Below the pieces are notes generated by a model. The model did no database searches, had not been told where the DNA came from, and was given only the letters and a program-made list of their open reading frames with translations. Source: Thraustochytrium sp. TN22 (taxonomy: Eukaryota; Sar; Bigyra; Thraustochytrida; Thraustochytriidae). Taken from it: 26,061 nt of DNA. The stretch is taken from the NCBI GenBank assembly GCA_013306675.1, contig JABLUY010000367.1:1-26061 (forward strand). The letters are read 5' to 3'. Shown one piece after another: positions 306 to 22,292 of the stretch. Position numbers and translations under genes: made by a program. How positions within the stretch are numbered: position 1 is the first letter of the stretch; each line of letters begins with the position of its first letter.

Positions 306-3300
306 TTAAATGTCGTCGTAGTCGACGCGCGCGTAGCACCAGGCGCGCTTCGAGGGCTTGTAGGACGTCATGGGCGCCTTGAAGAGCTCGCAGCGACCGT
401 AGCGATCGTCCCACTTTTCGGTCGAGGGGTACTCGACCTCGTGCTTGGTCCAGTCGATGTACTGGAACTCGTAGGCTTCGCAGCCGTAGGACTTCTTGCA
501 CTTGGCCTGGCATTCCTCCTTCATGCACGGCATGCTCGCGTCGCAGACGGCCTCGTAGTCACCCGTGCCACCGGGCATGTGGTACGTGCTGGGCAGGCGG
601 CAGTATCCCGGACCCACCAGTTGGAAGTAGTCGCCCTTGGCAGGCTTCGGGTTGGACGGCGTCATGCCGCCGCCCGAGTAGCGGTAGCACTTGTTGTAGT
701 TGTGAGTGGTGAGCATCCTCCAGCAGGACACGTCGTCGTACGGCGCGGTGTACCTCATGACCTTTTTGTGCAGCTCGCACTTGTACGTCTTCTCCTGGTA
801 CTCGACACCCTTGCACCAGTCTTCGTTGTCGTAGCAAAGCTTCTTGCAGTCGTCCAGGTGGTAGATGCCGGGGTACGTCTCGTAATCGCCGTTGCCCATG
901 ACGCCGCCGTCCTGGGGACGGTCCGAACGGCACGCGCCATCGCCGGTCTTCTTGAACCACGGGCACGTGTGGTACCAGCCGCGCGTCGATGCCTCCTGCT
1001 GGACGAAGGAGTCCGGGCCCTCGTCATCGGGGTCCTCCTGCGCGAGGTTCTTTTGCAGGGGCATCTTGTCGTCGACGATGATGGGATAGAAGCACTTGTG
1101 GAGCTTCTTGGTGTTGTAGACATCGTAGCACGAGACACCCGGCTTGTACTTGTAGGCCTTCATCTCGGTCTTGTGCAGCTCGCACTTGTGCTGCTTGTAG
1201 TCATACTCGATGCCTTGGCACCAAGAGGAGTACTGGCCGACGCAGAGGTCCTTGCACTCGTAAATAGAATGGATGCCGTACTTGACCTCGTAGTGTCCGG
1301 TGCCATAGGGCTCGCCATACCAGTACCTTTCGCGACAGTAGCCCGAGCCGACCTTCTTGAAGGCCTTGCACGTGACGTCGTGGTAGCCCTTGTAGCCCAG
1401 CGGGTACTCTGTCTCCTTTTTGTTCTGGGCCAGCTCCTCCTCGAACCTCTCCGCCACCTCCGCGACAGTCTCCGCTTCAGCATCCTGCTGGTCGAGCAGC
1501 TTCGGCTGGCGCTTCGGCTTGGGCGCCGCTCCTTCGGCCGCGGTCTGGATGAAGTAGTCCGGGCGCTCCGCCTCATCCTGGACCAGCGACATGATGTGGT
1601 AGTAGCACTTGGACTCGTCCCGGGTCTTGTAGAGGTCGTAGCACACAACCCCCTTCTTGTACTTGTAGGCTTTCATGTTCTTTTTGTGCAGCTCGCACTT
1701 GTAGGCCTTCTTGTTGTACTCAAAGCCCGTGCACCACGAATACGTGAGGGCACACAGGTACTTGCAGTCCTCGAGCGTGTACACCGGGTACGAGGTCTCG
1801 TACTCGCCGGTGCCGTATGGCTCGCCATATTGGTAGGTCTCGCGGCAGTAGCCATCGCCGACCTTGCGGTAGGCCTTGCACTTGCTGTAGGAGGAGCTCT
1901 TTGCTGTCTCCGCCACCTCCGCGACAGTCTCCGCTTCAGCATCCTGCTGGTCGAGCAGCTTCGGCTGGCGCTTCGGCTTGGGCGCCGCTCCTTCGGCCGC
2001 GGTCTGGATGAAGTAGTCCGGGCGCTCCGCCTCATCCTGGACCAGCGACATGATGTGGTAGTAGCACTTGGACTCGTCCCGGGTCTTGTAGAGGTCGTAG
2101 CACACAACCCCCTTCTTGTACTTGTAGGCTTTCATGTTCTTTTTGTGCAGCTCGCACTTGTAGGCCTTCTTGTTGTACTCAAAGCCCGTGCACCACGAAT
2201 ACGTGAGGGCACACAGGTACTTGCAGTCCTCGAGCGTGTACACCGGGTACGAGGTCTCGTACTCGCCGGTGCCGTATGGCTCGCCATATTGGTAGGTCTC
2301 GCGGCAGTAGCCATCGCCGACCTTGCGGTAGGCCTTGCACTTGCTGTAGGAGGAGCTCTTTGCTGTCTCCGCCACCTCCGCGACAGTCTCCGCTTCAGCA
2401 TCCTGCTGGACGAGCAGCGTCGGCTTGCGCTTCGGCTTGGGCGCCGCTCCTTCGGCCGCGGTCTGGATGAAGTAGTCCGGGCGCTCCGCCTCATCCTGGA
2501 CCAGCGACATGATGTGGTAGTAGCACTTGGACTCGTCCCGGGTCTTGTAGAGGTCGTAGCACACAACCCCTTTCTTGTACTTGTAGGCTTTCATGTTCTT
2601 TTTGTGCAGCTCGCACTTGTAGGCCTTCTTGTTGTACTCAAAGCCCGTGCACCACGAATACGTGAGGGCACACAGGTACTTGCAGTCCTCGAGCGTGTAC
2701 ACCGGGTACGAGGTCTCGTACTCGCCGGTGCCGTATGGCTCGCCATATTGGTAGGTCTCGCGGCAGTAGCCATCGCCGACCTTGCGGTAGGCCTTGCACT
2801 TGCTGTAGGAGGAGCTCTGTTCTGTCTGCATGAAGTCCTCTGCCTGGATGAGCAGCTTGGGCAGGGGCGGCGGGCTCGGGTCTTCATCTTCTTCCTCCTC
2901 CTCCTCCGGCAGCGGCGGCGTGTTGGGCGCCAGGGGCGACGGGCCCAGGTCTTCCTCCTCGTCTTCCTCGTCCTCCTCCGGCGTGTTGGGCGGTAGGGGC
3001 GGCGGGCCCTGGTCTTCCTCCTCGTCTTCCTCCTCCTCCTCCTCCGGCGTGTTGGGCGGCAGGGGCGACGGGCCCAGGTCTTCATCCTCGTCTTCCTTGT
3101 CCTCCTCCGGCGTGTTGGGCGGCAGGGGCGGCGGGCCCGGGTCTTCCTCCTCGTCTTCCTCCTCCTCCTCCTCCTCCGGCGTGTTGGGCGGCAGGGGCGA
3201 CGGGCCCAGGTCTTCATCCTCGTCTTCCTCGTCCTCCTCCGGCAGCGGCGGCGGCGTGTTGGGCGGCAGGGGCGGCGGGCCCGGGCCTTCCTCCTCCGGC

Positions 3301-3893
3301 AGCGGCGGCGGCGTGTTGGGCGGCAGGGGCGGCGGGCCCGGGCCCAGCTCCGGCCGCGGGGGAAGGGGGGGAGGCGGCGGAGGCGGAGGCGGCAGCGGTG
3401 GCGTGCCTACGCACTTGGTGTAGTCCTTGGTCATGTAGACGTCGTAGCAACCGACACCGTATGCGGGCTTGTACGCCTTCATCTCCGTCCAGTGCAGCTC
3501 GCACTTCTTCTTCATCCAGTCATACTCGATGCCCTTGCAACGCATCTTGCTCACGCAGAGCTCCTTGCACTCTTGGAGCGAATCGACGTACACCAAGTCG
3601 TACTCTCCAGTCCCGTACGGGTATCCGTACGAGGTGTAACCCATGCGGCAGTACCCCTTGCCCACCTGCTTGAACGCCTTGCACTTGAGGCTTATCTCCG
3701 GCAGCTCCTCGTCCTCGCCCTCGTCCTCGTCATCCGTGTCCGTCGCCTGCGCCATGCTCTCCTCCGCGTCCGCCTCCGCAATGGAGGCCTTGAGCTGGTT
3801 AAGCGTCGCCGTGCGCAGGCTGGTCGCCTCGCCCTGCGCCGCCAGCAGCGCCAGCAGCACCACCGCGAAGCACGCCTGCGCCTTCATCGCCAT
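306..3893 (-). CDS. Secreted seven-module Cys-rich (Apple/PAN-like) repeat protein, gene 1
   Basis: Predicted secreted protein of 1195 residues from the Met at 3893. The frame stays open to a Met at 3971, but 3893 puts a signal peptide (core CFAVVLLALLAAQGEA) at the N-terminus; a Met at 3887 is also possible. Cys-rich modules lie at about residues 71-161, 366-457, 519-610, 672-763, 842-934, 977-1069 and 1098-1195. The first five share CKA[FY]K/R.VG.GYCR, YGTG, a C...C pair, C.G.EY, CELH or KCELH, MKAYK and CYD. The sixth (WYHTC start) and seventh (GPGYCR start, RCELF) are variants that recur at the end of gene 3. Modules 2-4 are nearly identical. Residues about 162-360 are a Pro and Asp/Glu linker; other linkers carry PDYFIQ. 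The Cys spacing recalls Apple/PAN adhesion domains, but that is my inference. A role in surface coat, adhesion or carbohydrate binding is plausible but not shown. No catalytic motif or transmembrane anchor is seen. Confidence 0.88.
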   Translation of the reverse strand: MAMKAQACFAVVLLALLAAQGEATSLRTATLNQLKASIAEADAEESMAQATDTDDEDEGEDEELPEISLKCKAFKQVGKGYCRMGYTSYGYPYGTGEYDLVYVDSLQECKELCVSKMRCKGIEYDWMKKKCELHWTEMKAYKPAYGVGCYDVYMTKDYTKCVGTPPLPPPPPPPPPLPPRPELGPGPPPLPPNTPPPLPEEEGPGPPPLPPNTPPPLPEEDEEDEDEDLGPSPLPPNTPEEEEEEEDEEEDPGPPPLPPNTPEEDKEDEDEDLGPSPLPPNTPEEEEEEDEEEDQGPPPLPPNTPEEDEEDEEEDLGPSPLAPNTPPLPEEEEEEDEDPSPPPLPKLLIQAEDFMQTEQSSSYSKCKAYRKVGDGYCRETYQYGEPYGTGEYETSYPVYTLEDCKYLCALTYSWCTGFEYNKKAYKCELHKKNMKAYKYKKGVVCYDLYKTRDESKCYYHIMSLVQDEAERPDYFIQTAAEGAAPKPKRKPTLLVQQDAEAETVAEVAETAKSSSYSKCKAYRKVGDGYCRETYQYGEPYGTGEYETSYPVYTLEDCKYLCALTYSWCTGFEYNKKAYKCELHKKNMKAYKYKKGVVCYDLYKTRDESKCYYHIMSLVQDEAERPDYFIQTAAEGAAPKPKRQPKLLDQQDAEAETVAEVAETAKSSSYSKCKAYRKVGDGYCRETYQYGEPYGTGEYETSYPVYTLEDCKYLCALTYSWCTGFEYNKKAYKCELHKKNMKAYKYKKGVVCYDLYKTRDESKCYYHIMSLVQDEAERPDYFIQTAAEGAAPKPKRQPKLLDQQDAEAETVAEVAERFEEELAQNKKETEYPLGYKGYHDVTCKAFKKVGSGYCRERYWYGEPYGTGHYEVKYGIHSIYECKDLCVGQYSSWCQGIEYDYKQHKCELHKTEMKAYKYKPGVSCYDVYNTKKLHKCFYPIIVDDKMPLQKNLAQEDPDDEGPDSFVQQEASTRGWYHTCPWFKKTGDGACRSDRPQDGGVMGNGDYETYPGIYHLDDCKKLCYDNEDWCKGVEYQEKTYKCELHKKVMRYTAPYDDVSCWRMLTTHNYNKCYRYSGGGMTPSNPKPAKGDYFQLVGPGYCRLPSTYHMPGGTGDYEAVCDASMPCMKEECQAKCKKSYGCEAYEFQYIDWTKHEVEYPSTEKWDDRYGRCELFKAPMTSYKPSKRAWCYARVDYDDI
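1451..2818 (-). repeat. 459-bp in-frame tandem triplication inside gene 1
   Basis: Three consecutive copies have a period of exactly 459 bp (153 codons), each encoding one Cys module plus its PDYFIQ and Ala/Glu linker. The copies differ by only a few bases. The clearest differences are near 2410-2430 in the copy closest to the 5' end of the gene (aggacgagcagcgtcggcttgc-type changes against its sisters) and one base near 2572. Synonymous sites are also almost unchanged, so the copies are either young or kept alike by gene conversion. Confidence 0.92.
2861..3405 (-). repeat. Coding minisatellite for Pro-rich/acidic linker of gene 1
   Basis: About eight imperfect units of roughly 57-76 bp each encode G-P-[PS]-P-L-P-P-N-T-P followed by a run of Asp/Glu. 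The anchor gtgttgggcggcaggggc recurs at irregular intervals while the gag/gac-rich part varies in length. The array stays in frame, giving an extended, highly negative spacer of about 200 residues between module 1 and the triplicated modules. Confidence 0.88.
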
Positions 3894-3898
3894 GATTT

Positions 3899-3920
3899 CT
3901 CCAGCGCAAGAGCGCTGGAG
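3899..3920 (-). promoter_or_regulatory. 9-bp hairpin just upstream of gene 1 start codon
   Basis: Perfect 9-bp GC-rich arms CTCCAGCGC and GCGCTGGAG flank a 4-nt loop. On the minus strand the stem ends five bases before the ATG at 3893. If it lies in the mRNA leader it could slow scanning or start selection. It also lies within the in-frame extension from the Met at 3971. The structure is visible; any regulatory role is inference. Confidence 0.45.
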
Positions 3921-3947
3921 GACGACTGCGTTGATCGATTCGGGTTT

Positions 3948-3983
3948 GCAGTGCAGTGCAGTGCAGTGCATGCAGTGCAGTGC
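3948..3983. repeat. GCAGT pentanucleotide microsatellite
   Basis: About seven copies of gcagt, interrupted once by gcatgc, lie about 55 bp upstream of the gene 1 start codon in its promoter or 5' leader. Such a tract is prone to length change. Confidence 0.85.
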
Positions 3984-5018
3984 GTTGCTGTGCCGCGCGC
4001 CGGCCGCGGCCCGGGGACTCGCTCGGCCCAGCGTCGAAGCCGCCCGCAGCAGCCCGTCCAGCGTGGATCTTGATCTTGTTCGGTCCTCCGGCTTGCTCGC
4101 TGCAGCTTCACGCGCGTCGCCGCCTCAGGCTCCTCGTCGCCCGGCTGCATTTTCCCGTCGGGCTCCGCGTCCGACTCGCGCGTCCGCGTCTGAGCGAGAG
4201 CGCAGGGCCCACGAGCGCGAGCGTGACGAGCGCGAGCGCTCGAGGAGACGGAGATGTAGGCCGGCGCCGGCGTGCGTGCATGTACAGGCCATGCAAGCAG
4301 CACAGGCGTGGCACGGCGCCCGCGCGTGGTCACGTTCCGGAATGCAAGGGTGGCGGGACGACGGCGCCAGGCCGCGAGGACCCGGCGAAAGCACCAGCTT
4401 CAGTGGTACTGGTATTACTCACAGTCAGAGCAAGAGGAGCCAAGAGGAGCAGAATCTCAGCAGAGCAGCGAGAGCTCGATCGCGATGAGGTACGAAGCAA
4501 CTTACGGCGCAGCTGCCGGCCGGCACAAGTCGAAAGTAGCGCGTGGCTGCAAAAGAGTCTCTTCGATCGCCGCGCGACCCGGACGTCAAGCGCCCGGCAC
4601 AAGTCCCGGCCCGAACGGGCCGCAAGCAGTCCGCGTCGAGACCGGTTCGCGCAGGATCCTGCGGTGTGCGTTGCTTCTGTGTGGCACGTGAGCAGCTTGC
4701 TCGGCTGGCCTCGGCTGGCCTCGGCTACGGCCAGATGCAGTGGGCGGTAGAGCAGGCGATGGCCGGCCCGCGGGCCGACGCGGAGGCCATGCCTGGCAAC
4801 GCGCAGGTGACGCCTGGCGACGCGAAAGGGGGACCCGGTGGAGCTGGCGGCTGCCAGTGGAGCGAGCCTGACGCGGAAGGGTATCGCATGTAGAGCGCGC
4901 TGCAATGTCAACACAGGATCTTTGCTCGTTGCTCAAGGTGCACAAGGCTGACGCGATCAGCCGCATCCGCCGCATCTTGCATAGCCTTATGTTTGTTTCC
5001 TAAGGTTGTTCGTCACGC
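3984..5018. other. Gene-poor spacer upstream of gene 1
   Basis: About 1 kb of GC-rich sequence should include the gene 1 promoter (minus strand). Open frames here encode low-complexity Arg/Ala/Ser-rich translations with no recognisable domain, and several overlap on both strands, as expected from GC bias. I see no TATA box, tRNA or rRNA. Confidence 0.6.
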
Positions 5019-5029
5019 GCTAGCCTTGC

Positions 5030-5445
5030 GCCAGCCGCGGTCCGAGGGCTTGGAGGCGGCCATGGGCATCTTGAAAAGATCGCCGCGGCCGCAGCGATTC
5101 CTCTTGGGTCTGCTCCTGCACGAAGTAATCATTGCGGGCCTCGTCGGCTTTTTAAAATGCACAAGGCACTTTGCTCTGGCTGGCGAACTCGTTGGACTTC
5201 AGGAGCGGGTCGACCGGAACGGTGCACCTGAGCGCCCTCTTGATGCGGTAAACGTCATAGCACAAAACGTCATCTCTGGACGCCTTCATCTCCTTTGTGT
5301 GCAGCCTGCACTGACATTTCACTTTGTGGAACTCGACGCTCTTGCAGCCTGGCCTCTCACACCACTGCACGTTGAGGTGCCAAGGTGATTCAATGATGGG
5401 ACCAGCACATAGGTACCCCATTGGTACCCGTACCTGGTTCCACCA
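5030..5445 (-). pseudogene. Decayed copy of the secreted Cys-rich module family
   Basis: Read on the minus strand, three pieces match the family but lie in different frames or behind stops. First, from about 5440, RYGYQWGTYVLVPSL resembles the module 1 segment YGYPYGTGEYDLV. A one-base frame change follows near 5374. Then WCERPGCKSVEF, RLHTKEMKAS and LCYDVY match the WC.GIEY, CELH, MKAYK and CYDVY landmarks. After an in-frame stop at 5152-5154, NDYFVQEQ matches the gene 3 linker PDYFVQEQ. A second frame change then gives GDLFKMPMAASKPSDRGW, which matches the gene 3 C-terminus (CELFKKPMTAYKPSDRAW). The WYHTC module between them is missing. No signal peptide or intact start is visible. This is best read as a fourth family member lost by deletion and frameshifts. 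Confidence 0.8.
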
Positions 5446-5460
5446 CCCGACCACCACCAC

Positions 5461-6015
5461 CCTTTGATGCGCAGCAACATCCCGGGGTCAAGGGAGTTGC
5501 GGTGGCGCGCCCAGAAGCGCGCAGGAGCAAGGAGCGTGGAATCGGCGAGGGATCCGCATCGCGCCTGCGTTTGCCTGTTTGCCTGCTCGCGTCGAGCGTG
5601 TACGATACGCACAGCTCGCGTGTGAGTGCTGCAGCGCTGCCGCAGCCAAGCCCTCGGCGCACTGCGGAAAAGTGCCGGCGGGCGGGATTCTTAAGCCGAT
5701 TCGGCTCGAGCCAACTCGAGTCGCCGGAACAAGCGTGCATGTGGCCGACCAGCTTGACTGCCAGTTTTGAGTAGAATAGAAATGACGTTGGAAATGAATT
5801 CTTCGGATCTTCTACTGGAGAAGTCCTCTTGCAGGCCTCAGGATGCAGGCCTCAGGATGCAGGCCTCAGGATGCAGGGCTCAGGATGCAGGGCTCAGGAT
5901 GGAGGCCTCAGATGTCGGTGGAATGCGCACGCAGCATGGGCGCTCTTGTTGCACGATGCTCACCTACACCTCCGTCCTCGTTGGCCTTGTCCTGGAGGGG
6001 GAGAGTCCGACCATT
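5461..6015. other. Spacer between decayed copy and gene 2
   Basis: This interval holds the 3' flank of gene 2 and what would have been the upstream region of the decayed copy. Apart from the 14-bp minisatellite at 5831-5913 I see no gene, RNA or conserved motif. The open frames are Arg/Ser-rich and unconvincing. Confidence 0.6.
5831..5913. repeat. 14-bp minisatellite (gcaggcctcaggat)
   Basis: Six head-to-tail units of 14 bp: three identical, two with one shared substitution (gcagggctcaggat) and a final diverged unit. It lies about 100 bp past the stop codon of gene 2, probably in its 3' flank. Confidence 0.92.
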
Positions 6016-7266
6016 CTAAGAAAAGTCCTCCTCCTTTGCCTCCTCCTGGAAAAAGGAAGTGTGGCCGGGTTGAAAGAAGCACTTGTACGGCTTCCTGGTG
6101 TATTTGACATCGTAGCACGAGACGCCCGGCTGGTGCTTGTAGGCCTTCATCTCCGTCCGATGCAGCTCGCACTTGTTCTGCTTGTAGTCATACTCAATGC
6201 CCTTGCACCATGACGAATACTTGCCCAGGCACATTTCCTTGCACTCGTTCATGGCGTGGACGCCATGCTTGACGACGGGGTGCCCCTTACCGTACGGTTC
6301 GCCGTGTACAAACTTCTCACGGCAGTAGCCCGAGCCGATGCGCTTGAAGGTCTTGCACCGGGGGCTGCTGTAGCCGCTGCCGCCATGGCTGCCGCCATGG
6401 CTGCCACCGTCATAGCCTCCATTGTGGCCGCCATGGCTGCCGTGACGCTGAAGGAGCTCCGCATCGCCCTCATCGTCGTCGTCCATGTCTTCTTCGTCGT
6501 CCTCATCCTCCACTTCCTCCTCCGCTTCGTCCTGCTGCTGCTGCTGCTGCCACATCTCGTTCGTCGCCTGCGCCATGTCACTCTCCGCCTCCATTACCTC
6601 CTCCTGCAAGAAGGAAGAGTGGCTGGGTTGAAAGAAGCACTTGTGCGGCTTCCTGGTGTATTTGACATCGTAGCACGAGACGCCCGGCTGGTGCTTGTAG
6701 GCCTTCATCTCCGTCCGATGCAGCTCGCACTTGTTCTGCTTGTAGTCATACTCAATGCCCTTGCACCATGACGAATACTTGCCCAGGCACATTTCCTTGC
6801 ACTCGTTCATGGAGTGGACGCCATGCTTGACGACGGGGTGCCCCTTACCGTACGGTTCGCCGTGTACAAACTTCTCACGGCAGTAGCCCGAGCCGATGCG
6901 CTTGAAGGTCTTGCACCGGGGGCTGCTGTAGCCGCTGCCGCCATGGCTGCCACCGTCATAGCCTCCATTGTGGCCGCCATGGCTGCCGTGACGCTGAAGG
7001 AGCTCCGCATCGCCCTCATCGTCATCGTCCATGTCTTCGTCCTCGTCCTCGTCCTCGTCCTCCTCCGCTTCGTCCTGCTGCTGCTGCTGCTGCCACATCT
7101 CGTTCGTCGCCTGCGCCATGTCACTCTCCGCGTCCGCCTGTTCGATGGACGCCTTGAGCTCCTGGAGCATCTCACTCCGCAGGCTGTTCGCCTCGCCCTG
7201 CGCCGCCAGGACAGCCACCAGCACCGCCGCGAGCCACACCCGGGTCTTGCCCTTCATCATCATCAT
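6016..7266 (-). CDS. Secreted two-module Cys-rich (Apple/PAN-like) repeat protein, gene 2
   Basis: Predicted secreted protein of 416 residues from the first of four consecutive ATG codons (7255-7266). The frame is open upstream to 7431, but that stretch looks non-coding. A signal peptide (WLAAVLVAVLAAQGEA) is followed by NSLR and the same post-signal segment as genes 1 and 3. Two nearly identical halves follow, each with AESDMAQATNEMW, a poly-Gln run, a long Asp/Glu run, a Gly/His-rich stretch (HGSHGGHNGGYDGGSHGGS) and a Cys module (about residues 118-210 and 304-396) with CKTFKRIGSGYCR, KCELHRTEMKAYK and CYD. Unlike genes 1 and 3 it has YGKG for YGTG and lacks the two C-terminal variant modules, ending soon after module 2. 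It may be a truncated relative or a distinct short form. The His/Gly and acidic runs could bind cations, but this is speculation. Confidence 0.87.
   Translation of the reverse strand: MMMMKGKTRVWLAAVLVAVLAAQGEANSLRSEMLQELKASIEQADAESDMAQATNEMWQQQQQQDEAEEDEDEDEDEDMDDDDEGDAELLQRHGSHGGHNGGYDGGSHGGSGYSSPRCKTFKRIGSGYCREKFVHGEPYGKGHPVVKHGVHSMNECKEMCLGKYSSWCKGIEYDYKQNKCELHRTEMKAYKHQPGVSCYDVKYTRKPHKCFFQPSHSSFLQEEVMEAESDMAQATNEMWQQQQQQDEAEEEVEDEDDEEDMDDDDEGDAELLQRHGSHGGHNGGYDGGSHGGSHGGSGYSSPRCKTFKRIGSGYCREKFVHGEPYGKGHPVVKHGVHAMNECKEMCLGKYSSWCKGIEYDYKQNKCELHRTEMKAYKHQPGVSCYDVKYTRKPYKCFFQPGHTSFFQEEAKEEDFS
6028..7134 (-). repeat. 558-bp in-frame duplication forming the body of gene 2
   Basis: Two copies have a 558-bp (186-codon) period, seen for example at the matching sites 6256 and 6814. 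Most differences are small in-frame length changes in the acidic run and one extra SHGG block in the downstream copy. The poly-Gln tracts (ctg runs near 6532-6552 and 7076-7096) are kept in both. The unit differs from the gene 1 unit in including the acidic and Gly/His linker. Confidence 0.9.
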
Positions 7267-8291
7267 CACCACCACCTCCGTCACCGTTCGGCGCTGCACG
7301 TTCGCGATTTGCGGAGCCCGCTGCAAGGCGAGACGATCCCGGTCTGCTGCTGCAGCTGCTCGCTCGCCGCGCCTCGCCGCCGGGGTACGCGCCGCCGCGT
7401 CGCCTCGACAGCCAATGCACGGCCACTGCACGATCTTGCATCCGCGCGATCGCCGATCCGCGGCAATCTTCAGGCTGCTCTGGCTTGCTTTGAGCCTGCG
7501 TCTCGCTCATGACAGTGGCCCGCTCCGAGCCCGGCTGGCCGCCCTCGACCATGGCGGTGGCCGCGGCGGGCGGCCCAGGCGCGAGCTCTGCGGCGCGGAG
7601 TGGAGTTGGGCGAGACGACTTGGAGGGAGCCTGAGGGCTCGAAGCGAGCGGGCTTGCAGTGGGAGACGAGCGAGCTTGAGAGGCACGCGACCGCCCTGGG
7701 CTGTAATTAGGCTCAGGCGGAGCCCGGCCGAGGACCCGAGCGGAGAGCCGCAGAAGCGCGAAGAGCCGCAGATGCGCGGAGAGCCGCAGAAGCGCGAAGA
7801 GGCCTGGCCCGCAAGCCGGGTAGGTACGCGATGAAGGCTCTGACAGCTTGCGACGTGGGCGGCGCAACGGGGCTGCGGCGTTCAAGACGCAGAGACGACG
7901 AGGGCAGCGAGAGGGTGCAAAAGAGTGGTTCGCGCCGGGCTCTCTCGACAGGAAAGATACAAGTCGGCACCTGAGGGCGGGTGCCAGATCGTCCGCGAAA
8001 GAGGGCGTGTCGCGACGCACGCAGTGAGACGGGCTGCCAGTGCAAAGCGAGCGACGCGAATGAAGCCGGGTAGCCTGAGCTGGCGCAGGTTCCGTCCGTC
8101 AAGAGTCTCGCTCGCTCATCACTCAATCATGCAAATTCACTCACTTCGTCGCTCGCTCGCTCGCTCGTGGCACCTCTCGCTCTGTCAGCCATCAGGGCTT
8201 GACGAAGGCAAACAAACAAAAAACGTGAAAGAATGTGAATCGAATTTGAAGCCCGGCAGGCTTTTCGCGTTATGGCTCGCCTCGTCCTCCA
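7267..8291. other. Spacer between genes 2 and 3
   Basis: About 1 kb of GC-rich DNA should hold the gene 2 promoter and the gene 3 3' flank. It includes three 18-bp units (gagccgcagaagcgcgaa type) at 7745-7798 and a short CGCT run near 8150-8168. Open frames on both strands are Arg/Ala/Ser-rich with no recognisable domain. I see no RNA gene. Confidence 0.6.
7745..7798. repeat. Three-copy 18-bp tandem repeat
   Basis: Units at 7745, 7763 and 7781 read gagccgcagaagcgcgaa; the first and third are identical and the middle one has two substitutions. It lies about 480 bp upstream of the gene 2 start codon. No function is evident. Confidence 0.85.
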
Positions 8292-9617
8292 TCAAATCTC
8301 GTCGTAGTCGACGCGCACGTAGCACCATGCGCGATCCGAAGGCTTGTAGGCGGTCATGGGCTTCTTGAAGAGCTCGCAGCGGCCGTAGCGATAGTCCCTC
8401 TTTTCGGTCGAGGGGTACTCGTCCTCGTGCTTGGACCAATCGATGTACTGGAACTCGAAGGCGTCGCAGCTGCTGGACTTCTCGCACTTGGCCTGGCACT
8501 CCTCCTTCATGCACGGGCCGCTTGCGTCGCAGACGGCATCGTAGTCTCCCGTACCAACGGGAATGCCAAGGTTAGAGTACTCGCGGCAATAGCCCGGGCC
8601 GAGCAGTTGGAAATAGTCGCCCTTGGCAGGCTTCGGGTTGGACGGCAACGGGCCATACGAGTGGTGGAAGCACTTGTTGTAGTTGTGGGTAGTGAGCATC
8701 CTCCAGCAGGACACGTCGTCGTACGGCGTGGTGTACTTCATCACCTTCTTGTGCAGCTCGCACTTGTAGGTCTTCTCCTGGTACTCGACGCCCTTGCACC
8801 AGTCCTCGTTGTCGTAGCAAAGCTGCTTGCAGTCGTCCAGGCGGTAGATCTTCTTGTACGTCTTGAAATCGCCGCTACCCATGGCGCCGCCATCCTGCGG
8901 CTGATCCGATCGGCACGCGCCGTCACCCATCTTCTTGAACCACTGGCACGTGTGGTACCAGCCCTCGGCCTCCGCCTCCTCCTGCACGAGCTCCTCCTCC
9001 TGAACCTGCTCCTGCACGAAGTAATCCGGGCGCTCCTCCGTGGCCTGCTCCTGCACAAGCCTGGGGCGATCGTAGCACTTGCTGTACTTGGTGGTTTCGT
9101 ACATGTTGTAGCACGAGACGCCGTCCTTGGACTTGTACGCCTTCATCTTCGTCTTGTGGAGCTCGCACTTGTTCTGCTTGTAGTCGTACTCGATGCCCTT
9201 GCACCACGCGGAGTATTTGCCGGCGCACATGTCCTTGCACTCGTAAATGGAGTGGACGCCCCGCTTGAGGACGTAGTCGCCCGTGCCGTACGGTTCGCCA
9301 TACACGTACTTCTCGCGGCAGTAGCCCTTGCCCACCTTCTTGAAGGCCTTGCACAGGACCGTCGTAGTGATGCCCTGCACGAGCTCGGCCTCCTCCTCCT
9401 CGTCGTCGTCGAGGTCGGCCTCCTCCTCCTCCTCACCCTCCTCGTCGTCCTGCACGAGCAGCTTGGGCAGGGGCGGCGGCTTGGGGGCGCCGGCCTGCGC
9501 CAGCGACGCCTGCAGCTCCTGCAGCGTCGCGGCCCGCAGGCTGTTCGCCTCGCTTTGCGCCGCCAGCAGCGACAGCACCAGCACCGCGGCCCACGCCTGC
9601 ACCTTGGCGGCCACCAT
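8292..9617 (-). CDS. Secreted three-module Cys-rich (Apple/PAN-like) protein, gene 3
   Basis: Predicted secreted protein of 441 residues. The ATG at 9617 starts directly on a signal peptide (WAAVLVLSLLAAQSEA), followed by NSLRAATLQELQASLAQA and an acidic linker with PKLLVQ and LVQ motifs. Module 1 (about residues 89-181) is the standard type: CKAFKKVGKGYCR, YGEPYGTGDY, WCKGIEYDYKQNKCELH, CYN. Module 2 (224-316) starts WYHTCQWFKKMGDGACR. Module 3 (from about 344) contains GPGYCRE, GTGDYDAVC, RCELFKKPM and ends RVDYDEI. Modules 2 and 3 closely match the last two modules of gene 1, so this is the compact form of gene 1 without the repeated middle. The linker PDYFVQEQ also survives in the decayed copy near 5100. 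It looks like the simplest full-length template of the family. No enzyme motif or membrane anchor is seen, and the biological role is unknown. Confidence 0.88.
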   Translation of the reverse strand: MVAAKVQAWAAVLVLSLLAAQSEANSLRAATLQELQASLAQAGAPKPPPLPKLLVQDDEEGEEEEEADLDDDEEEEAELVQGITTTVLCKAFKKVGKGYCREKYVYGEPYGTGDYVLKRGVHSIYECKDMCAGKYSAWCKGIEYDYKQNKCELHKTKMKAYKSKDGVSCYNMYETTKYSKCYDRPRLVQEQATEERPDYFVQEQVQEEELVQEEAEAEGWYHTCQWFKKMGDGACRSDQPQDGGAMGSGDFKTYKKIYRLDDCKQLCYDNEDWCKGVEYQEKTYKCELHKKVMKYTTPYDDVSCWRMLTTHNYNKCFHHSYGPLPSNPKPAKGDYFQLLGPGYCREYSNLGIPVGTGDYDAVCDASGPCMKEECQAKCEKSSSCDAFEFQYIDWSKHEDEYPSTEKRDYRYGRCELFKKPMTAYKPSDRAWCYVRVDYDEI

Positions 9618-11220
9618 CTTGCCGGCCGGCTCGCGCTCGACCTCGCTCGCCGCGCTTCAACCTTGCAGACCTCGCCCTGCAGGCCGCTCTCGATTCAGGT
9701 TTGCATTGCCAAGATCCACGCCACGATCCAGGCGCGCCCGAGTACCCCGGATACGCGCCGGTGGCGGTCGTGGGCTCGTCACGTTGCGCGCGCCGCAGTC
9801 CAGAGGCTCGCCGGAGCAGCTGTCTGCTCTGCTGCCGTGGACGCTGGAGTCCTGCGCCGCAATGCAGCTAGGACGGCTGGCTGCCCTGCAGCACGCCGCC
9901 GCTGCCGAGCGCCGCGGGCGCGACGGCGCGGCGAGCCCCGCGGGCGACTCGCGCGCCCGAGCCCGGCGGCGGCCGGACATGCTGACACGAGAGGGCGAGG
10001 ACCCAGCCCGCAGAACGGAGGACCCGGAGGTATGTATCCGGAGGCCGGACGGTCGGTATCTAAGGTTTCTATCCAGCCTCGAGTCGCGTTCGTAGCCCGC
10101 GGCCCTGTGCAGGATCTTGGCCGAAGCTCCAAGGGCGCCAAGATCGCGGATCATCCCGCGCAGCCTGGCGCCCTCGCCTCACGCCGGGGCCCAGGCGACG
10201 AGGACGGGCCGGGAGGGACCCGAAGCCTCCGCTGAGGCAGGCCGAGCCTGCCAGGTCTTTGGTGGCGAGCCCGAGCTCAAGCGCCGACTTCGCCCAGGGG
10301 CGCGCCGCCGCTCGTGGCCTGCACGATCGCCAGGCCGGGGCTGCCGCGGCGGCCAGCGAGCCAGCCAGCCGGCCGGGCCTGGGGCGGCCCCGCGGCCCGC
10401 GAGGCGCAGTGGAGCGGGTTGGAGCCCGGGCGAGCGGGCTCGCGCCGCGTCGCGCCGCGTCGCTTCGCGTCGTGCCGGGCCTCCGGGTCGTGCATGGGGC
10501 AGCCATGGGGCGGGCATCGAGGGGCATCGCGCATCATCAACGCGTGCAGCCAGCCACCAGCTAGCTACTAGCGAGCGAGCCGAGCCGCCCACTGGAAGCG
10601 GTCGGGGACGCGGGCGCGGCCTCGGGTGCAGCCTGAGGCCAGCCCGCCGCCCGCTCGCTCGCGTCCGGGCGAGTGCGGCGAGTGTCGCGCTGGTCTTGGG
10701 CGAGGACCCCGCGCGTGTCCCGGCGCAAAACGAGGCGAGGTCCACTGCGCGCAGGGCACTAGCACATTCGATATCCCAATCACACCTCTATGCTTACTCG
10801 TATCCGCCTACCACGCGGGGGTCCCTCGGTGACGCCCGGCACAGGGGGCACTAAAGCGTATTAAGAGGGTACTTTACTCCCGATTTGCTCCAAAAAAGTG
10901 GCCTAGAGTCTGGCGAAGTTAGTTCCGCATTCGATCAAAAACGCAGCGATGGGGCCGAGCTTGAAGAGGCCCACTCGAAGCGACCCAAGGCTCCTGCCCC
11001 CTATTCATTTTGGCCGAAGGCGTGGTGGTTAGGATGAGATGAGCTCGGCAGTTCGCCCAGAGCGGCTTTGGGGGGAGCTCGCGCGCGACTTCGTCGCGGA
11101 GCGCGCTGGAGCCGCAGGCGCTGCGGCGCGCGGCTGCAGGCGGCCCTGGCGGGTGCCTTGTGCCTGCTCTCAGCTCGCACGCCCCTGCCGCAGCGCTTGG
11201 ACGTGGAGTCGGGCCCGCAC
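9618..11220. other. Gene-poor spacer upstream of gene 3
   Basis: About 1.6 kb of very GC-rich DNA covers the gene 3 promoter side and the left flank of the broken mobile-element-like gene. It contains runs of cgcgccgcgtcg (about 10440-10470). Open frames on both strands are Arg/Ala/Pro-rich and overlap heavily, with no recognisable domain. From about 10850 the sequence becomes less GC-rich, with a TTAA at 10861-10864. I found no tRNA or rRNA. Confidence 0.55.
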
Positions 11221-11228
11221 TGCGACAT

Positions 11229-12905
11229 CATGGCATCGGCGAGGCCTAACCACCGCGTGGAGGACGACAGCGACAGCGACAGCGACAGCGAGTTCGTGCC
11301 CCTGGACAAGCGGGACACAGGGGACGAAGACGAAGAAGGAGAGGAGCTTGGCGACGAGGATGCTCGTGCTGAGGCCGCTGCGCAGCAAGACTTCGAAGAC
11401 ATACTTGCGTTGGTCGACGAACCGACGCGTGGTGCGAGTGCATGTTCGAGGTCGGCCTCATTCAGCACAAGACCGTTCCGGGGCTCGCAGTCTCGCCGGA
11501 TGGAGTCGCTCGCGTCCGGCTTCCAGGCGCGGAGTGCGACGCATCGTCAGTACTATGCAGCGTCGAGATCAAGACGCGCGTCGCGCCTGGAGGCGCGGTA
11601 GACGCACGTATCGTGAGCACCCAGATGAACACGTGGGGGACGAGACTTGGTGGAAGGCCATACCTGCCGAGCACCGCGCGCAAGTCTTGCACCAAGCTGT
11701 GGTCCTCCAAATCGATCACGTGCTCTACGTTGCTGCCAGCACGAGTTCGTGTTTGTACGCCTGCCTCGTTGAAGTGCCTCCGGACGCCCGGCTCGCCATG
11801 GAGCGCGCTCTGAAACCGTGGGCGGACAAGCTCACGACATGGGCGCACCAGAGCATCGACAGCGGGTGCGCCGCCCAAGCCACCTGCCATCTTCGGCGAG
11901 GAGGAGGGGGCGGTGCTGAGCTCGCACTTCCGGCTGTGGCGCGCCATGCGCAAGCTTGTCGCTCTGAAGGGGCCCATGCGGCCCGTGCATGTCATCAAGT
12001 GCTTACCGCAGGAGCTATACAACGTCGCAAAGGGCGGCGTCGACGGAAGCACACAGTACGTGGAGCAGATCACCAACACGCAGTGCATGAATCTGAGCTG
12101 CGACCAGAACATCGCGTTGCGCACGTACAAGCAGCTCGTTGTCAACGCCATCGTGGTCTACCGCTACTTACAGGCTGCGAGGAAGAGCAACCTCGAAGAC
12201 AGCGACGGGCTAAAGGCCCTCCGCGACAAGGTGAACCGCTCTGAAGCGCTCAGCACTGTCTCGTTCCGCCTCACTGTCGACATGGTCCGTCACGTCTACA
12301 GGAGCAGGCAGCTCGATACGGCGCAGGTGGAGTTCAACATGCAGCCAAGCATGCCCAAGCCCACTGGGCTCACCAGGGAAGCGGCGAGGGACCTCGTGAC
12401 CGCCGGTAAGCGCAAGCGAACCCCCGAGTTGCAGAAGTTCTTCAACCACGGCCAAGCCCGCGACATCCGCCTCGATGCCGCACTGCAACATGACTCAGAG
12501 GCAGCGGGAAAGGCATCCTTCAACGCCAACAACAAGAGGATTCCCGCCAAGCGGCTCTGCGTCATCTGCGGCAAGCAAACGCACCGTCGTTGCACCATCT
12601 GCGGTGTGCCTCTGCACGTGTTCATGAGAAAGAATGAACGCACAACCTGCTTTTCCAAGTGGCACACGCGCGTGCGCGTCGAGCCTCACGAAGGCTTCAA
12701 GAAGCGCAAGACAAACGTCAACGGAACACCTTCGCCCATTTGCCTCGATCATGTCGATTCGAGCAGCGCCAGTGCCTCGTCCGGTACCCCTACAGCGCAG
12801 AGCAGGAACGACCACGTAGCCCAAGCCAGCTACACCGACACCCCATCAAGCCATAGTTCAAGATCCTCTCGCAGCAGCCTCAGCACGAGTCCATCGTGCC
12901 CTTGA
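11229..12905 (+). pseudogene. Broken mobile-element-like gene: YqaJ-type nuclease plus piggyBac-like C-terminal Cys/His cluster
   Basis: Recognisable coding pieces lie in order but in different frames. Frame 1 (about 11230-11420) encodes an acidic leader (DSDSDSDSEFVPLDKRD). Frame 3 (about 11409-11610) encodes WCECMFEVGLIQHKTVPGLA, then VSPDGVA and SVEIKTRV, the Asp and Glu-x-Lys pattern of the YqaJ/lambda-exonuclease fold. Frame 2 (about 11620-11870) encodes HRAQVLHQAVVLQIDHVLYV, which fits the downstream Gln motif of YqaJ. Frame 3 resumes at about 11870 and stays open to 12905 with LPQELYNVAKGGVD and CVICGKQTHRRCTICGVPLH...CFSKWH, a Cys/His cluster like the piggyBac transposase C-terminus. 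At least three frame changes and a stop at 11811-11813 break it, so no full protein can be made without introns, and I see no convincing ones. It may be a dead element or debris of a host nuclease; the nuclease call is firmer than the piggyBac link. Confidence 0.62.
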
Positions 12906-14234: not shown

Positions 14235-17200
14235 ATGGAGCGCGTGCTGGACGAGGTGATCGGCGGCAGGGACCCGCGACGCGTGCGGTGGCTAAGCTTG
14301 GGCCGCGCCGTGGAGACCTTTGGCGTGGAGGAGCGACTCACGGACGTGCGCGGGCTAGAGGCCTGTGAGGCGCTCGTGAGCCTGGACCTGAGCGGGCATG
14401 CGCTGTCCAACGCCGACCGGCTGCGCGGCCTGCGGCAGCTGCAGGAGCTCGACCTTTCTCGCAACCGACTGCGGCACCTGGAGGGCCTGGGCCGCCTGCA
14501 GAACCTGCGCGTGCTGGACCTGAGCGGCAACCTGGTGGAGCACCTGCCGGAGCAGATGGGCCTGCTCCAGCAGCTGCAGTGGCTGGACCTGCGCGGCAAC
14601 AAGCTGGGCGACCCGGAGGAGCTCGCAAACCTCGCGCCCTGCGGCCGCCTGTTCCGCCTCTTCCTCAAGGGCAACCCGCTCTGTGGGCTGCCCACGGTCG
14701 GCGATCTGGTGCTCAAGCACTGCCGCAGCCTCACCTTTTTGGACGATGCTGAGGTGGTGCGCAGCACAAACGGTAGCGGCGGTGGCGGCAGCGGGCGCGG
14801 GGCGCGCGCGCTGCCTGCCAGCGCCACGGCCACGCCGGCAGACCAGGAGGCCAAGGAGCGTATCTCGCGCCTCGAGCGCCAGGTGGCGGCCGAGCGAGGC
14901 ACCGTGCAGTCGCTGCAGACGCAGAATCAGGACCTCAAGAACGAACTGGAGGCAACAGCGCAGCTACTCGCGCGCAAGACCTCCGAGTGGGCCGTCGCTG
15001 AGGAACAGGCCAGCCGCCTGCAGCAGGAGCTCGCCTTCTTGCGCATCGACGGGAGATCTGGCGCCGCTGCCGCATCGGCTGCGCCGCCCGCTTCGCCTGG
15101 GCAAGAGTCCTTGTCTCCGCCGCCGCCGCCGCCGCCATCGTCGTCGTCGTCCTCGCACAGCGCGACGGACGCTGTTGCGGAACTCTGGGGCCTGGTGAGC
15201 CGGTCGCCGCTGAGCGGGCCCGTGCTGCCGCGCGGCGAGCTGGCCGAGGCGCTGCGCGAGGTGGAGGGCGCCATCGCCGACAACGCCAAGCGCGCCACGG
15301 CGCGACTGCGCGCGCTCAACCTCGAATTCGCCGATGCCAAGGCCGAGCTGGCGCGCCTCCAGGACGAGCTGGACGGCGCCGTGGGCAGCCAGGACCGCCA
15401 GCGCATGGAGGCCGCGCAGCTGGCCGCCGCCAGCATCGACGCCCGCGGCGACGCGGCCGCCACCACGGCGGCGCGCATCGATGCCAAGGAGCGCGAGCTG
15501 CGCGTGGTCACAGCGCTGCGGCGCCATATGGACGCGGTCCGCGACGCGCTCGCCACGCTGCTGGAGCGCGCGCAGGAGCTCCTAGTGCGCCACACGGAGC
15601 GCGTTGTCACTGAGCACGACGCCGGCGACAAGCAGTCCAGCGGCGACAAGTACACCGCCGCACGCGCCGCGCACGAAGACCGCATCGCGCACGCCAAGAC
15701 CGAAATGCGCGACGCCGCCGTGCATGCCTCGCTCGTGTGGGCAGAGCTGCGCGACGCGCTAGCCGCCTGCGAGCCGGCTGTGGCGCAGCACTTTGGCGAC
15801 CTGCTCGCGCTCGACGCGCTGGAGGACCTCGTGGTCGAACAGGACGAGGCCGAGACCAAGGTCTTCCAGGCGGATTCAGGCTTCCAGCGCACCACGGTCT
15901 TCGACACCACCATGGCAGTCTTCTCAGACCAGGCCATGCGCGTCAAGCGTATGCAGGCCACGGTGGCGGCCGGCCTCGAGGCCTGCGAGGTGCGCTCCGG
16001 TCAGCTGCGCCGCGATGCGGACGCTCTCGCGTCCGCGACGCCCACCAGCATCTTTTCGCCGCAGGAGCCCGCCTCGGCTGCCGCGGAGCGCGAGGCCGCC
16101 GCCGACGCCCTCGTGGACGACCTGCATGAGGACGTGCACGCTGCGCAGTCGCGCATCCGTGACCTGCAGGCCACCATCCTGCAGCTCAAGTGCGAGGCGT
16201 GGCGCGTGGAGGCCACGCTGCGCACCAAGCAGTGCTCCATCATGTGCGCTGCCGTCGACGAAAAGGACGCCGCCGTCAAGGCCTGCAGTGAGGTCATTCG
16301 ACGCCTGCGCGAGAGCGGCGCCACCGAGTCAGCGGCGACGGCGACGGCCAGCGCCGTTGCCGCCTTCGACCTCGACAGCCTCGCCGGCAGCGAGCGCTCC
16401 GCAGCCCTCTCCCTGCGCGACCTGGGTCCCGGTCGCCCCGGCGCCGGCGCCGGCGCCACGGCCGCGCCGCCACGCCAGGACGCCGCGAGGCGGCGCCGCG
16501 GCGGCGGAAACGACGGCAGCGAGAGCGGTGCCGCTCAGGAGGACGCCAGCGCCACGCGCTCGTCGTCCGCGGCGGCCGCGCTCATGGCGGTGTCGGAGCA
16601 AAAGGCGCGCGAGGTCCGCCGTCAGGTGCTGGACGACCTGGTCGAGCGCGAGGCGCAGTACCTGGACGACCTCCACCTGCTGGTCAACAGCTTCCTGGTG
16701 CCCATGCGCCGCCGCTGCCTGCTGCCCCCGCGCGACTTGCAGGCCATTTGCCTCAACGCCGAGGACATTTGCCGGCTGCACGAGTCGCTCGGCCAGGCGC
16801 TCGGCCGCAGCGCCGGCCGCATGGACGCCAGCGATATCGTCGCAGCCTACCTGAAGCGCGCCGAACGCCTTGAGGCATACGTAAACTTTGGCGTCAACTG
16901 CTCGCTCGCCATGGCTGTGGCGGCCGTTCGCCGCCGCGAGGTAGCCGGTTTCGCCAGCTTCCTGCGCGCCACGCCGCAGGGTGAGGACGGCGGCGACATG
17001 CTGCGCCGCCTGCTGCAGCGCCCGCTGCAGCAGCTCTGCATGTACGAGCAGGCCTTCTTCCGTCTGCTTGACCTCAACAAAGCGGGCGGCAACGCCGCCA
17101 TGGAGGAGCGCCTCGAGGCGCTCGCTTCGGCCGTCACTCAGGTGCTCAATCGGATCGACTGCAATGTGGAGGACGCCAAGCGCCGCGCCGAGGCGCTCGC

Positions 17201-18707
17201 ACACGTCACCGAAATGGTCCCGGCGCACCCGGCCATGGACAAGCGACTCGTCACCTGGCTCACCAGCCCGAATCTGCGCGCGCGCAAGCGCACTTTCCTG
17301 CTCGAGGAGCGCTGCAGCGAGGTTCTTCTGCTCGTCCCAGGCCGCAACGCGCTCTGCGTGCGCCGTTGCGTGCTCGTTGCGCTCTCGGACTGCGTCCTCG
17401 TCGCGGCCGCCGCGCCGCCCTCCGCCAAATGGCGCCCCACCTTTGCCGAGGAGCGCCCGCGGCGCCGCGCGCTCTGGGTCTTCCGTGCGCAGGACGGGCT
17501 CGCCTGCAGCCGGCCCTTCCTCGCCACGGGTGGCAGCGACAGCGCGCGCTACCAGCAGGCGCGCGACGAGGCGGACGCTCAGGGCGACCACGACGCCGAC
17601 CAGCACCCGCTGCGCATGGCTGTGCGCCTCTGCGCCAACGGGCCTCGCTCCGCTGCTGCCGGCGAGGAGCTCCCCATCGTAGAGGCTGTCATCACGCTCG
17701 CCGCCGAAGGTGCCGCAGACCGCGTCTACAATGCCGTGGACGCCATCCTGCGCGAGCAGCAGGAGTCCCCGCAGGTCGTCTCTGCGTCGCGCGGCCGGGC
17801 CAGCCGCGTGCCGGCCGCCGCATCGGTGCCCGTCGAGGAGCAGCGCGCCGTCGCGGACGTGCTCTCCTGGCGCGATGCTCGCTCGCTCGAGTCGCCCAGG
17901 TCCTCCTCCAGCCGCGCGCGCCAGGCCGTCAAGGCGACGCCTGCCGCGTCGGCGCATCAGGACGACCGCGTCGCCAGCATGGCCGACGTTGATGCCAGCG
18001 ACGACGCCTCGCTCTCCTATGTGCCCAAGTACCCAGGCACCGATATGAAGAAGCGCCGCGAGCTCGCACGCCGCCGCCAGGAGGCGCGCTCGCGCTGGAA
18101 GCCGCCCGAGCTCGAGAATGTCAACGCGGTCGTGGCCCAGGAGCGCATCCGCAAGCGCGACGGCATGCCGCTCGCCGACGACCAGCTCATCACGCCGGTG
18201 GTCGCCGCGCAGCCTCAGCAGCTCCGCGTCTACCCGCGGCCGGCGCGCGACCCCTCTGCGCAGGCCCCGCAGTCAGACGTCTTCATGACGCCCATCAAGG
18301 CCGACGCCGCTAGCTCCTCGACGCGCAGCCGAGCTCGCAAGTCCAGCCTCGGCTTTGGCAGCGCCGCGAGGCTCGAGCGCAACGAGCCGCTGCCCTTTCG
18401 CAAGAACATCATGCGCGCCGGCAGCCCGAGTCCCAGCCCACGAGCGCGCCGCGCGCCGCCCTCGCAAGAGGCGCCTGAGGTCAACTTCGACGCCTCCAGC
18501 CCCTACTTTGAGCGGCATGAGCGGCCCCAGCCTGACCTCTCCATCTTCAAGGCGCCCCAGCGCGCCCCCGCGGTCCGCGATGCCCCGGACGTCGGCTACC
18601 GCGCCAAGCGCCTCATCGGCCTCCCTGCCAACACCTCCGACGTTGTAAAGGAGTTCCATGGCTCCGAGCACAAGTACTACAAGTCCGGCACTGAGGGCTC
18701 GAGCTAA
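14235..18707 (+). CDS. LRR, coiled-coil, DH-PH protein (putative Rho-family GEF)
   Basis: Protein of 1490 residues. The ATG sits in a good context (gccATGG) directly before conserved sequence. Residues about 45-175 hold SDS22-like leucine-rich repeats (LVSLDLSGHAL, LQELDLSRNRL, LRVLDLSGNLV, LQWLDLRGNKL) capped by LFLKGNPLCGLP and LTFLDDAEV. Residues about 206-272 and several later stretches up to about 700 are predicted coiled coil, broken by a Pro/Ser run near 295-310. A DH (RhoGEF) domain at about 790-985 begins VRRQVLDDLVEREAQYLDDL and includes the helix LLQRPLQQLCMYEQAFFRLL. A PH-like region follows at about 1008-1170 (KRTFLLEE, VLVALSDCVLVAA, LWVFRAQDG), with a low-complexity insert. The tail is basic and Ser/Pro-rich with SPSPRARR, possibly phosphorylated. 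By family knowledge it would load GTP onto a Rho/Rac-type GTPase and link that to cytoskeleton or basal-body structures. The exact partner is unknown. The fusion of SDS22-type LRRs to DH-PH is unusual. Confidence 0.88.
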   Translation: MERVLDEVIGGRDPRRVRWLSLGRAVETFGVEERLTDVRGLEACEALVSLDLSGHALSNADRLRGLRQLQELDLSRNRLRHLEGLGRLQNLRVLDLSGNLVEHLPEQMGLLQQLQWLDLRGNKLGDPEELANLAPCGRLFRLFLKGNPLCGLPTVGDLVLKHCRSLTFLDDAEVVRSTNGSGGGGSGRGARALPASATATPADQEAKERISRLERQVAAERGTVQSLQTQNQDLKNELEATAQLLARKTSEWAVAEEQASRLQQELAFLRIDGRSGAAAASAAPPASPGQESLSPPPPPPPSSSSSSHSATDAVAELWGLVSRSPLSGPVLPRGELAEALREVEGAIADNAKRATARLRALNLEFADAKAELARLQDELDGAVGSQDRQRMEAAQLAAASIDARGDAAATTAARIDAKERELRVVTALRRHMDAVRDALATLLERAQELLVRHTERVVTEHDAGDKQSSGDKYTAARAAHEDRIAHAKTEMRDAAVHASLVWAELRDALAACEPAVAQHFGDLLALDALEDLVVEQDEAETKVFQADSGFQRTTVFDTTMAVFSDQAMRVKRMQATVAAGLEACEVRSGQLRRDADALASATPTSIFSPQEPASAAAEREAAADALVDDLHEDVHAAQSRIRDLQATILQLKCEAWRVEATLRTKQCSIMCAAVDEKDAAVKACSEVIRRLRESGATESAATATASAVAAFDLDSLAGSERSAALSLRDLGPGRPGAGAGATAAPPRQDAARRRRGGGNDGSESGAAQEDASATRSSSAAAALMAVSEQKAREVRRQVLDDLVEREAQYLDDLHLLVNSFLVPMRRRCLLPPRDLQAICLNAEDICRLHESLGQALGRSAGRMDASDIVAAYLKRAERLEAYVNFGVNCSLAMAVAAVRRREVAGFASFLRATPQGEDGGDMLRRLLQRPLQQLCMYEQAFFRLLDLNKAGGNAAMEERLEALASAVTQVLNRIDCNVEDAKRRAEALAHVTEMVPAHPAMDKRLVTWLTSPNLRARKRTFLLEERCSEVLLLVPGRNALCVRRCVLVALSDCVLVAAAAPPSAKWRPTFAEERPRRRALWVFRAQDGLACSRPFLATGGSDSARYQQARDEADAQGDHDADQHPLRMAVRLCANGPRSAAAGEELPIVEAVITLAAEGAADRVYNAVDAILREQQESPQVVSASRGRASRVPAAASVPVEEQRAVADVLSWRDARSLESPRSSSSRARQAVKATPAASAHQDDRVASMADVDASDDASLSYVPKYPGTDMKKRRELARRRQEARSRWKPPELENVNAVVAQERIRKRDGMPLADDQLITPVVAAQPQQLRVYPRPARDPSAQAPQSDVFMTPIKADAASSSTRSRARKSSLGFGSAARLERNEPLPFRKNIMRAGSPSPSPRARRAPPSQEAPEVNFDASSPYFERHERPQPDLSIFKAPQRAPAVRDAPDVGYRAKRLIGLPANTSDVVKEFHGSEHKYYKSGTEGSS

Positions 18708-22255: not shown

Positions 22256-22292
<37 letters not shown>

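Follow-up and report, generated by a model that had tools for sequence, protein, structure and literature searches.

We analyzed a 26,061-nucleotide stretch of DNA from the thraustochytrid Thraustochytrium sp. TN22 (positions 1 to 26,061 of the forward strand of contig JABLUY010000367.1, assembly GCA_013306675.1; hereafter, the window), and in particular a cluster of genes for cysteine-rich modular proteins at positions 306 to 9,617. The cluster described in an earlier note on this DNA was confirmed here: there are three genes that are intact and a decayed fragment, all on the minus strand and with 12 modules in total. Gene A (306..3893) encodes a protein of 1195 amino acids (aa) with seven modules, gene B (6016..7266) one of 416 aa with two modules, and gene C (8292..9617) one of 441 aa with three modules; on translation, each reading frame runs uninterrupted from ATG to stop. 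All three proteins exceed the curated cut-off of 21.4 bits of the Pfam PAN_1 profile (PF00024), at E = 9.7e-33 and 112.3 bits for A (seven stretches, each at E ≤ 10), E = 5e-13 and 49.1 bits for B, and E = 1.3e-13 and 51.0 bits for C. The contig is exactly as long as the window (26,061 bases), and since gene A ends only 305 bases from the contig edge, the cluster may extend further.

The modules, named by gene and order and all read on the minus strand, fall into three types. Type I comprises A1 (3402..3692; PAN_1 E = 1.3e-08 when scored alone), A2 (2505..2807; 8.8e-06 alone), A5 (1077..1379; 5.2e-06 alone), B1 (6622..6924; 6.6e-08), B2 (6064..6366; 2.7e-07), which is 97% identical to B1, and the first module of gene C, C1 (9063..9362; 1.2e-05). 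Modules A3 (2046..2348) and A4 (1587..1889) are identical in protein sequence to A2, and both lie above the PAN_1 cut-off; single-module scoring thus covered ten distinct modules, with A3 and A4 scored at their own positions. Type II comprises A6 (672..974; 5.4e-07) and C2 (8652..8957; 3.3e-06), which are 83% identical. Type III, the C-terminal cap, comprises A7 (309..641) and C3 (8295..8624), which are 78% identical and fall below the cut-off (E = 0.17 and 12.2 bits, and E = 0.027 and 14.7 bits, respectively). Gene B has no cap module. The sequence landmarks listed earlier for the module are indeed present, but in the alignment A7 and C3 lack the first and last cysteines and carry a pair of loop cysteines instead. 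The acidic, Pro-rich, poly-Gln, and Gly/His-rich linkers were likewise found, in genes A and B: residues 165–363 of protein A hold 68 acidic residues and 68 prolines among 199, and its acidic, Pro-rich linker repeats (2860..3400, minus strand) have periods of 63 and 132 bp, among others; gene B carries the poly-Gln and Gly/His stretches.

Judged by profile and alignment, the modules of genes A, B, and C are PAN/Apple domains. A hint of likeness to Apple/PAN had been given before and is upheld by the PAN_1 matches, and the label "apparently uncharacterised family" has to be dropped, since ten of the 12 modules individually score above the PAN_1 cut-off and the other two, A7 and C3, are counted as PAN/Apple because the alignment ties both to the other modules. 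The result approaches what the note itself had named as a refutation, a strong match of every module to a described family of known function: ten modules match PAN_1 in this way, and the two caps stay under the cut-off. In an alignment of 19 modules, drawn from 28 modules of the wider family described below by leaving out nine identical or near-identical copies, the core cysteine columns 47, 51, 59, and 89 are Cys in 19/19 modules, as are columns 16 and 110, the predicted N-to-C pair of the Apple clasp. When the 19-module profile was compared with the PDB, a chain of Toxoplasma MIC4 (4a5v) ranked first, with an E value of 1.6e-6 to which two Apple domains contribute, each weak by itself (0.016 and 0.25). 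Next came a fungal PAN-Kelch oxidase (0.0024), a second MIC4 chain (0.005), and factor XI (0.019), with Eimeria MIC5 (0.043) and antigen L2 of Sarcocystis (0.21) weaker still. A profile made from the window modules only gave weaker matches, to the fungal oxidase (0.0061) and hepatocyte growth factor (0.068), and MIC4 was not listed.

It might be argued that the modules represent a wholly new domain family, PAN-like only through convergent cysteine spacing. The outer pair of cysteines described below does fall beyond the stretch that the Pfam model covers, and the caps fall short of its cut-off, but convergence would have to account for the ten modules above that cut-off, for the MIC4 chain at 1.6e-6, and for the profile iteration, which connects the family modules with the six-cysteine PAN domains of the same genome; we regard it as very improbable. 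A WSC-type domain, which like the present modules combines the PAN fold with eight cysteines and is described as forming four disulfides from them (PMC9024836), appears more improbable still. The WSC profile (PF01822) matches one of the 19 modules (E = 0.0063), against 18/19 at E ≤ 1 for PAN_1, and gave no match for the whole proteins A, B, and C. Compared by eye with the published description, the alignment has its cysteines at other positions, with different spacing, and lacks the CGG motif (PMC9024836). No relatives were confirmed in viral contigs or prokaryote genomes (0/20 and 0/1 stretches with the pattern, respectively).

The genome surveyed (37.9 Mb in 453 contigs) is rich in PAN domains. 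There are at least 136 PAN_1 matches at E ≤ 0.01, at least 134 of them over the cut-off (three only together with their neighbors), and these counts are lower bounds, with 150 of 159 candidates scored. Profile iteration over 26 stretches (L025–L050) plus genes A, B, and C gathered 150 domains in 45 frames. Within this complement the window genes belong to a defined subfamily: a search with the window profile returned eight frames outside the window with scores of 74–151 bits, the next frame reaching 41.5, and genes A, B, and C together with these eight genes, on contigs C44, C22, C49, C412, and C300, make up 11 genes with 28 modules. The four genes on C44 and C22 scarcely differ from one another and perhaps represent haplotypes; in stretches L026 and L027 they form two near-identical pairs of two-module genes beside long runs of N. 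Giant module frames of 4888 and 2398 aa on these two contigs were rejected, being N runs read as open frame; the intact frames measure 244–245 aa.

What sets the subfamily apart is a pair of cysteines, C1 and C8, outside the six (C2–C7) of the Apple pattern. C1 lies exactly 11 residues before C2, and C8 lies 8–12 residues after C7, in 26/28 family modules, and both are absent from the remaining two, A7 and C3, a loss that counts as one event since these modules are paralogous to each other. The six-cysteine PAN domains elsewhere in this genome share the same six cysteine positions with the family. We compared 127 other PAN domains, taken from 20 chosen regions and including some fragmentary rows: a cysteine 8–14 residues before C2 occurs in 19 of the 127, in one of the 127 at exactly 11, and a cysteine 8–18 residues after C7 occurs in 30, while C2 and C7 themselves are absent in 15 and 14, respectively. 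Both outer cysteines, even in these loose windows, occur together in only five of the 127, as against 26/28 in the family, a contrast that is partly circular because the family was delimited by profiles that see the cysteine columns. When all 155 domains were finally aligned, exactly the six columns C2–C7, without C1, are Cys in 98 domains, and the C1 column is Cys in 26 domains, every one of them in the family. In a tree built from 147 of these domains (eight short rows were dropped), the 28 family domains and three others formed one clade with support 0.96; the three (two at L049, the other at L050) are among the five domains with a loose pair. The published PAN pattern, and the fact that C1 and C8 are present or lost together, suggest an additional disulfide, C1–C8, that would lie outside the C2–C7 Apple clasp. 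By these profile matches the eight-cysteine form is a variant of Apple/PAN, possibly one already described in print, and the subfamily provides an example of Apple domains that have gained another cysteine pair on the outside.

Among ten of the other PAN frames that were scanned, several also carry von Willebrand factor A (VWA), CEMIP, or PT-repeat parts. PAN and VWA are joined in an adhesin-like make-up at L031, L033 (C413), and L047 (C51), with PT repeats as well in three of the four frames, and PAN domains are combined with CEMIP parts in two frames at L039 and L040 (C406). The longest array in the stretches examined has 17 PAN domains in tandem, in a frame of 3332 aa or more at L046:3-9998 (minus strand). 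A segment of the form C.VW[FY]DGCN[TS]C stands between two Apple modules at L028:2563-3486 and 4393-5559 (minus strand), L029:775-1713 (plus strand), and L030:2940-3977 (minus strand); of two such peptides, one matched Pacifastin_I weakly and below the cut-off (E = 0.034) and the other matched nothing.

We then considered how module number and order vary. The earlier note had proposed evolution by module shuffling, whereas 6/11 family genes have a fixed C-terminal cap and it is the inner modules that have been duplicated. The cap is the last module in genes A and C and in the four two-module genes of C49, C412, and C300, and it is absent from gene B and from the four C44/C22 genes; the type II module is second-last in both A and C. 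Free shuffling was rejected in view of the fixed places of the cap and of the second-last module type. A loop cysteine pair is common to the six C-terminal modules (A7, C3, and those of C49, C412, and C300) and absent in the other 13 of the 19 aligned modules, and it is this feature that unites the caps, since the tree leaves the two window caps separate from the other four. Duplication is seen in gene A, where modules A2–A4 and their linkers form three tandem 459-bp units with 99% matches (1448..2827, minus strand); in gene B, the two modules are set off by a 558-bp step. Read from this order and these repeats, the family changes by duplication of inner modules and not by shuffling, although the repeat arrays may in part reflect assembly error.

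Diverged modules are under constraint overall. The ratio of nonsynonymous to synonymous substitution rates (dN/dS) was computed for 14 module pairs, which are not independent, and lies at 0.24–0.47 in the ten diverged pairs. Among the recent copies, A2/A3 and A2/A4 differ by one synonymous change each and nothing else, A3/A4 do not differ at all, and B1/B2 differ by three nonsynonymous and zero synonymous changes. The last of these, together with the tandem arrangement of the genes, the recent duplications, and the decayed remnant, is what one would expect if the products were secreted to act on prey, hosts, or competitors and were diversifying in an arms race, and PAN proteins have been discussed among the secreted proteins of oomycetes. 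We nevertheless consider such a role unlikely in view of the whole-module dN/dS values.

What is left in the decayed remnant (5015..5415, minus strand), spread over two frames and interrupted by a stop, is half of a type I module (its C-terminal part), then a linker and the last portion of a cap module. Both tblastn and blastn with genes A, B, and C locate it at about 5015–5415, the best tblastn match to the intact proteins having E = 1.9e-12, and a weak piece (E = 0.20) extends it to 5444. The remnant itself is therefore real, but it is perhaps not the whole fourth copy that had been described: a genome-wide search at E ≤ 10 with the N-terminal region of the family found no match in it. Since it lacks a start region and lies downstream of the capless gene B, it may be not a fourth gene but a detached 3' end, e.g., that of gene B.

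The N-terminal region of the three intact genes is shared, with a signal-like N-terminus and a conserved following segment at 3771..3893 in gene A and 7135..7260 in gene B that are 61% and 52% identical, respectively, to the query segment of gene C (9489..9617; all minus strand); in the genome this region has three matches at E ≤ 10, all at the intact genes. Signal peptides had been assigned to all three proteins, and by eye all three N-termini are signal-like, but a 19-residue hydropathy window of at least 1.6 is reached only in A and C and not in B. Past residue 40, no hydropathy window in A, B, or C exceeds 0.65, so that a membrane anchor is not apparent, and the proteins are probably secreted. 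N-glycosylation sequons number zero in the 2052 residues of A, B, and C taken together, against a mean of 3.6 in shuffled sequences, 38/2000 of which also have none; this scarcity is suggestive only. Upstream, a 16-base motif common to genes A and C was found by eye and later located at 3935..3950 and 9690..9705 (minus strand), inside a 20-base match between the two upstream regions (E = 4.6e-4). A shared promoter was rejected as an explanation, since the exact hits arise by construction and, with up to three mismatches allowed, at least two matches occur in 6/100 shuffles. The 3' regions of A, B, and C show no likeness better than E = 0.35.

The ectoplasmic network, by which thraustochytrids feed and hold on to surfaces, is poorly known in its components. 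With 7, 2, and 3 tandem Apple domains behind signal-like N-termini (the weakest being that of B), proteins A, B, and C are laid out like the MIC4-like adhesins, and MIC4, the best match among solved structures, itself has tandem Apple domains, six in number (PMC8247436). Compared with MIC4, MIC5, and SML-2, the present family comes from another lineage and adds the outer cysteine pair and long acidic, Pro-, Gln-, or Gly/His-rich linkers. PAN proteins of thraustochytrids are already in print (PMC8534400, PMC12221091). A 2025 proteome study listed 18 ectoplasmic-network candidates, one of them a predicted secreted, MIC4-like protein, A. limacinum A0A6S8AHQ2 (PMC12221091). This protein rises on settlement, matches MIC4 and SML-2, has no close relatives outside labyrinthulomycetes, and has been proposed as an ectoplasmic-network adhesin (PMC12221091). 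By description, it is similar to the proteins here in being thraustochytrid, predicted to be secreted, and a deep match to MIC4/SML-2, while A. limacinum g1125, also a thraustochytrid PAN_1 protein, differs in being predicted transmembrane (PMC8534400). Among stramenopiles, CBEL-type proteins are PAN/Apple proteins with wall and adhesion roles (PMC3532174). CBEL of oomycetes binds through galactose/N-acetylgalactosamine (Gal/GalNAc), and its authors suppose the PAN part to be responsible (PMC3532174); unlike A, B, and C, it joins PAN to CBM1, and its PAN is described as having four conserved cysteines (PMC3532174). In our searches CBM1 was absent for A and C at E ≤ 10 and, for B, absent among the best 25 families listed.

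On balance, and with moderate confidence, we favor the view that these genes encode a soluble, multivalent Apple-domain adhesin or lectin of the cell wall or ectoplasmic network. Each module would be an Apple domain with core disulfides C3–C6 and C4–C5, the N-to-C clasp C2–C7, and the added outer clasp C1–C8; strung on acidic, Pro-, Gln-, or Gly/His-rich linkers, the modules would offer two to seven binding sites per chain, an arrangement of disulfide-rich domains on long linkers that suits multivalent binding. Several weak sites per chain could then hold glycans or glycoproteins, with the cell's own galactose-containing wall, the ectoplasmic network, or a settlement surface as putative targets. 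Valency would shift through duplication of inner modules within a gene, with the C-terminal cap retained in A and C. Thraustochytrid walls are described as containing galactose- and xylose-bearing sulfated polysaccharides (PMC11642839), and a fungal PAN protein is described as a wall protein required for cell integrity (PMC3338822).

Several points weigh against this proposal. The caps A7 and C3 score under the PAN_1 cut-off, the first-ranked MIC4 match is a sum of two weak ones, the contrast with other PAN domains is in part built into the way the family was delimited, the N-terminus of B is less hydrophobic than those of A and C, and B1 and B2 differ by nonsynonymous changes alone. An ectoplasmic net is reported to be missing from at least one thraustochytrid strain (PMC11642839), and PAN modules are reported to bind protein as well as carbohydrate receptors, many of them proteins (PMC3338822, PMC9024836). 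This last point opens the way to a structural role, in which the modules would not be lectins but would bind other proteins, forming cross-linked units from which the wall or scales are built. Tandem modules with many cysteines on long linkers, together with the lack of an apparent membrane anchor, would fit such a role. For MIC4, the nearest solved relative, an affinity for terminal galactose is however described (PMC8247436). We think a structural role possible but doubtful, although nothing in the present data separates it from the lectin.

Going beyond the favored adhesin or lectin, one might picture the eight-cysteine, double-clasped subfamily as a multivalent lectin confined to labyrinthulomycetes, with a part in building or anchoring the ectoplasmic network or the galactose-rich wall; inner modules would be duplicated rapidly while the C-terminal cap stayed fixed, and this would tune its valency. 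This we put forward tentatively; were it true, it would give molecular access to a structure that labyrinthulomycetes alone possess. In either case, the 136 PAN_1 matches and the defined eight-cysteine subfamily of 11 genes are testable candidates for parts of the network and for attachment.

Other features of the window and genome were also noted. At the contig edge, positions 1–122 of the window hold 4.2 copies of a 29-bp tandem repeat. Beyond the cluster, overlapping frames at 11033–12905 have no clear Pfam match (weak zf-RING_16, E = 0.33) and look, by eye, like a decayed mobile element. They are followed by a 1490-aa protein with leucine-rich repeats and a RhoGEF domain (14235–18707, plus strand), a Peptidase M76 (19166–19939, plus strand), an ATP-dependent DNA ligase (20178–22760, minus strand), and a glyoxalase-family protein (24322–25776, minus strand). 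Elsewhere in the genome, on contig C124, a 3044-aa frame matches the polyunsaturated fatty acid (PUFA) synthase PfaA with 2539.7 bits when taken with its in-frame neighbors, against a cut-off of 1010.1 that 0/14 control genomes reach; other eukaryotes, to our knowledge, do not usually have PUFA synthase, and the match thus indirectly points to a thraustochytrid as the most likely source. A pattern for 18S rRNA had no match in the genome. Parts of the PfaA profile were also matched by an adjoining 2083-aa frame on the opposite strand, and the PUFA synthase genes of thraustochytrids are described as having a conserved PfaA–PfaB neighborhood (PMC11951076).

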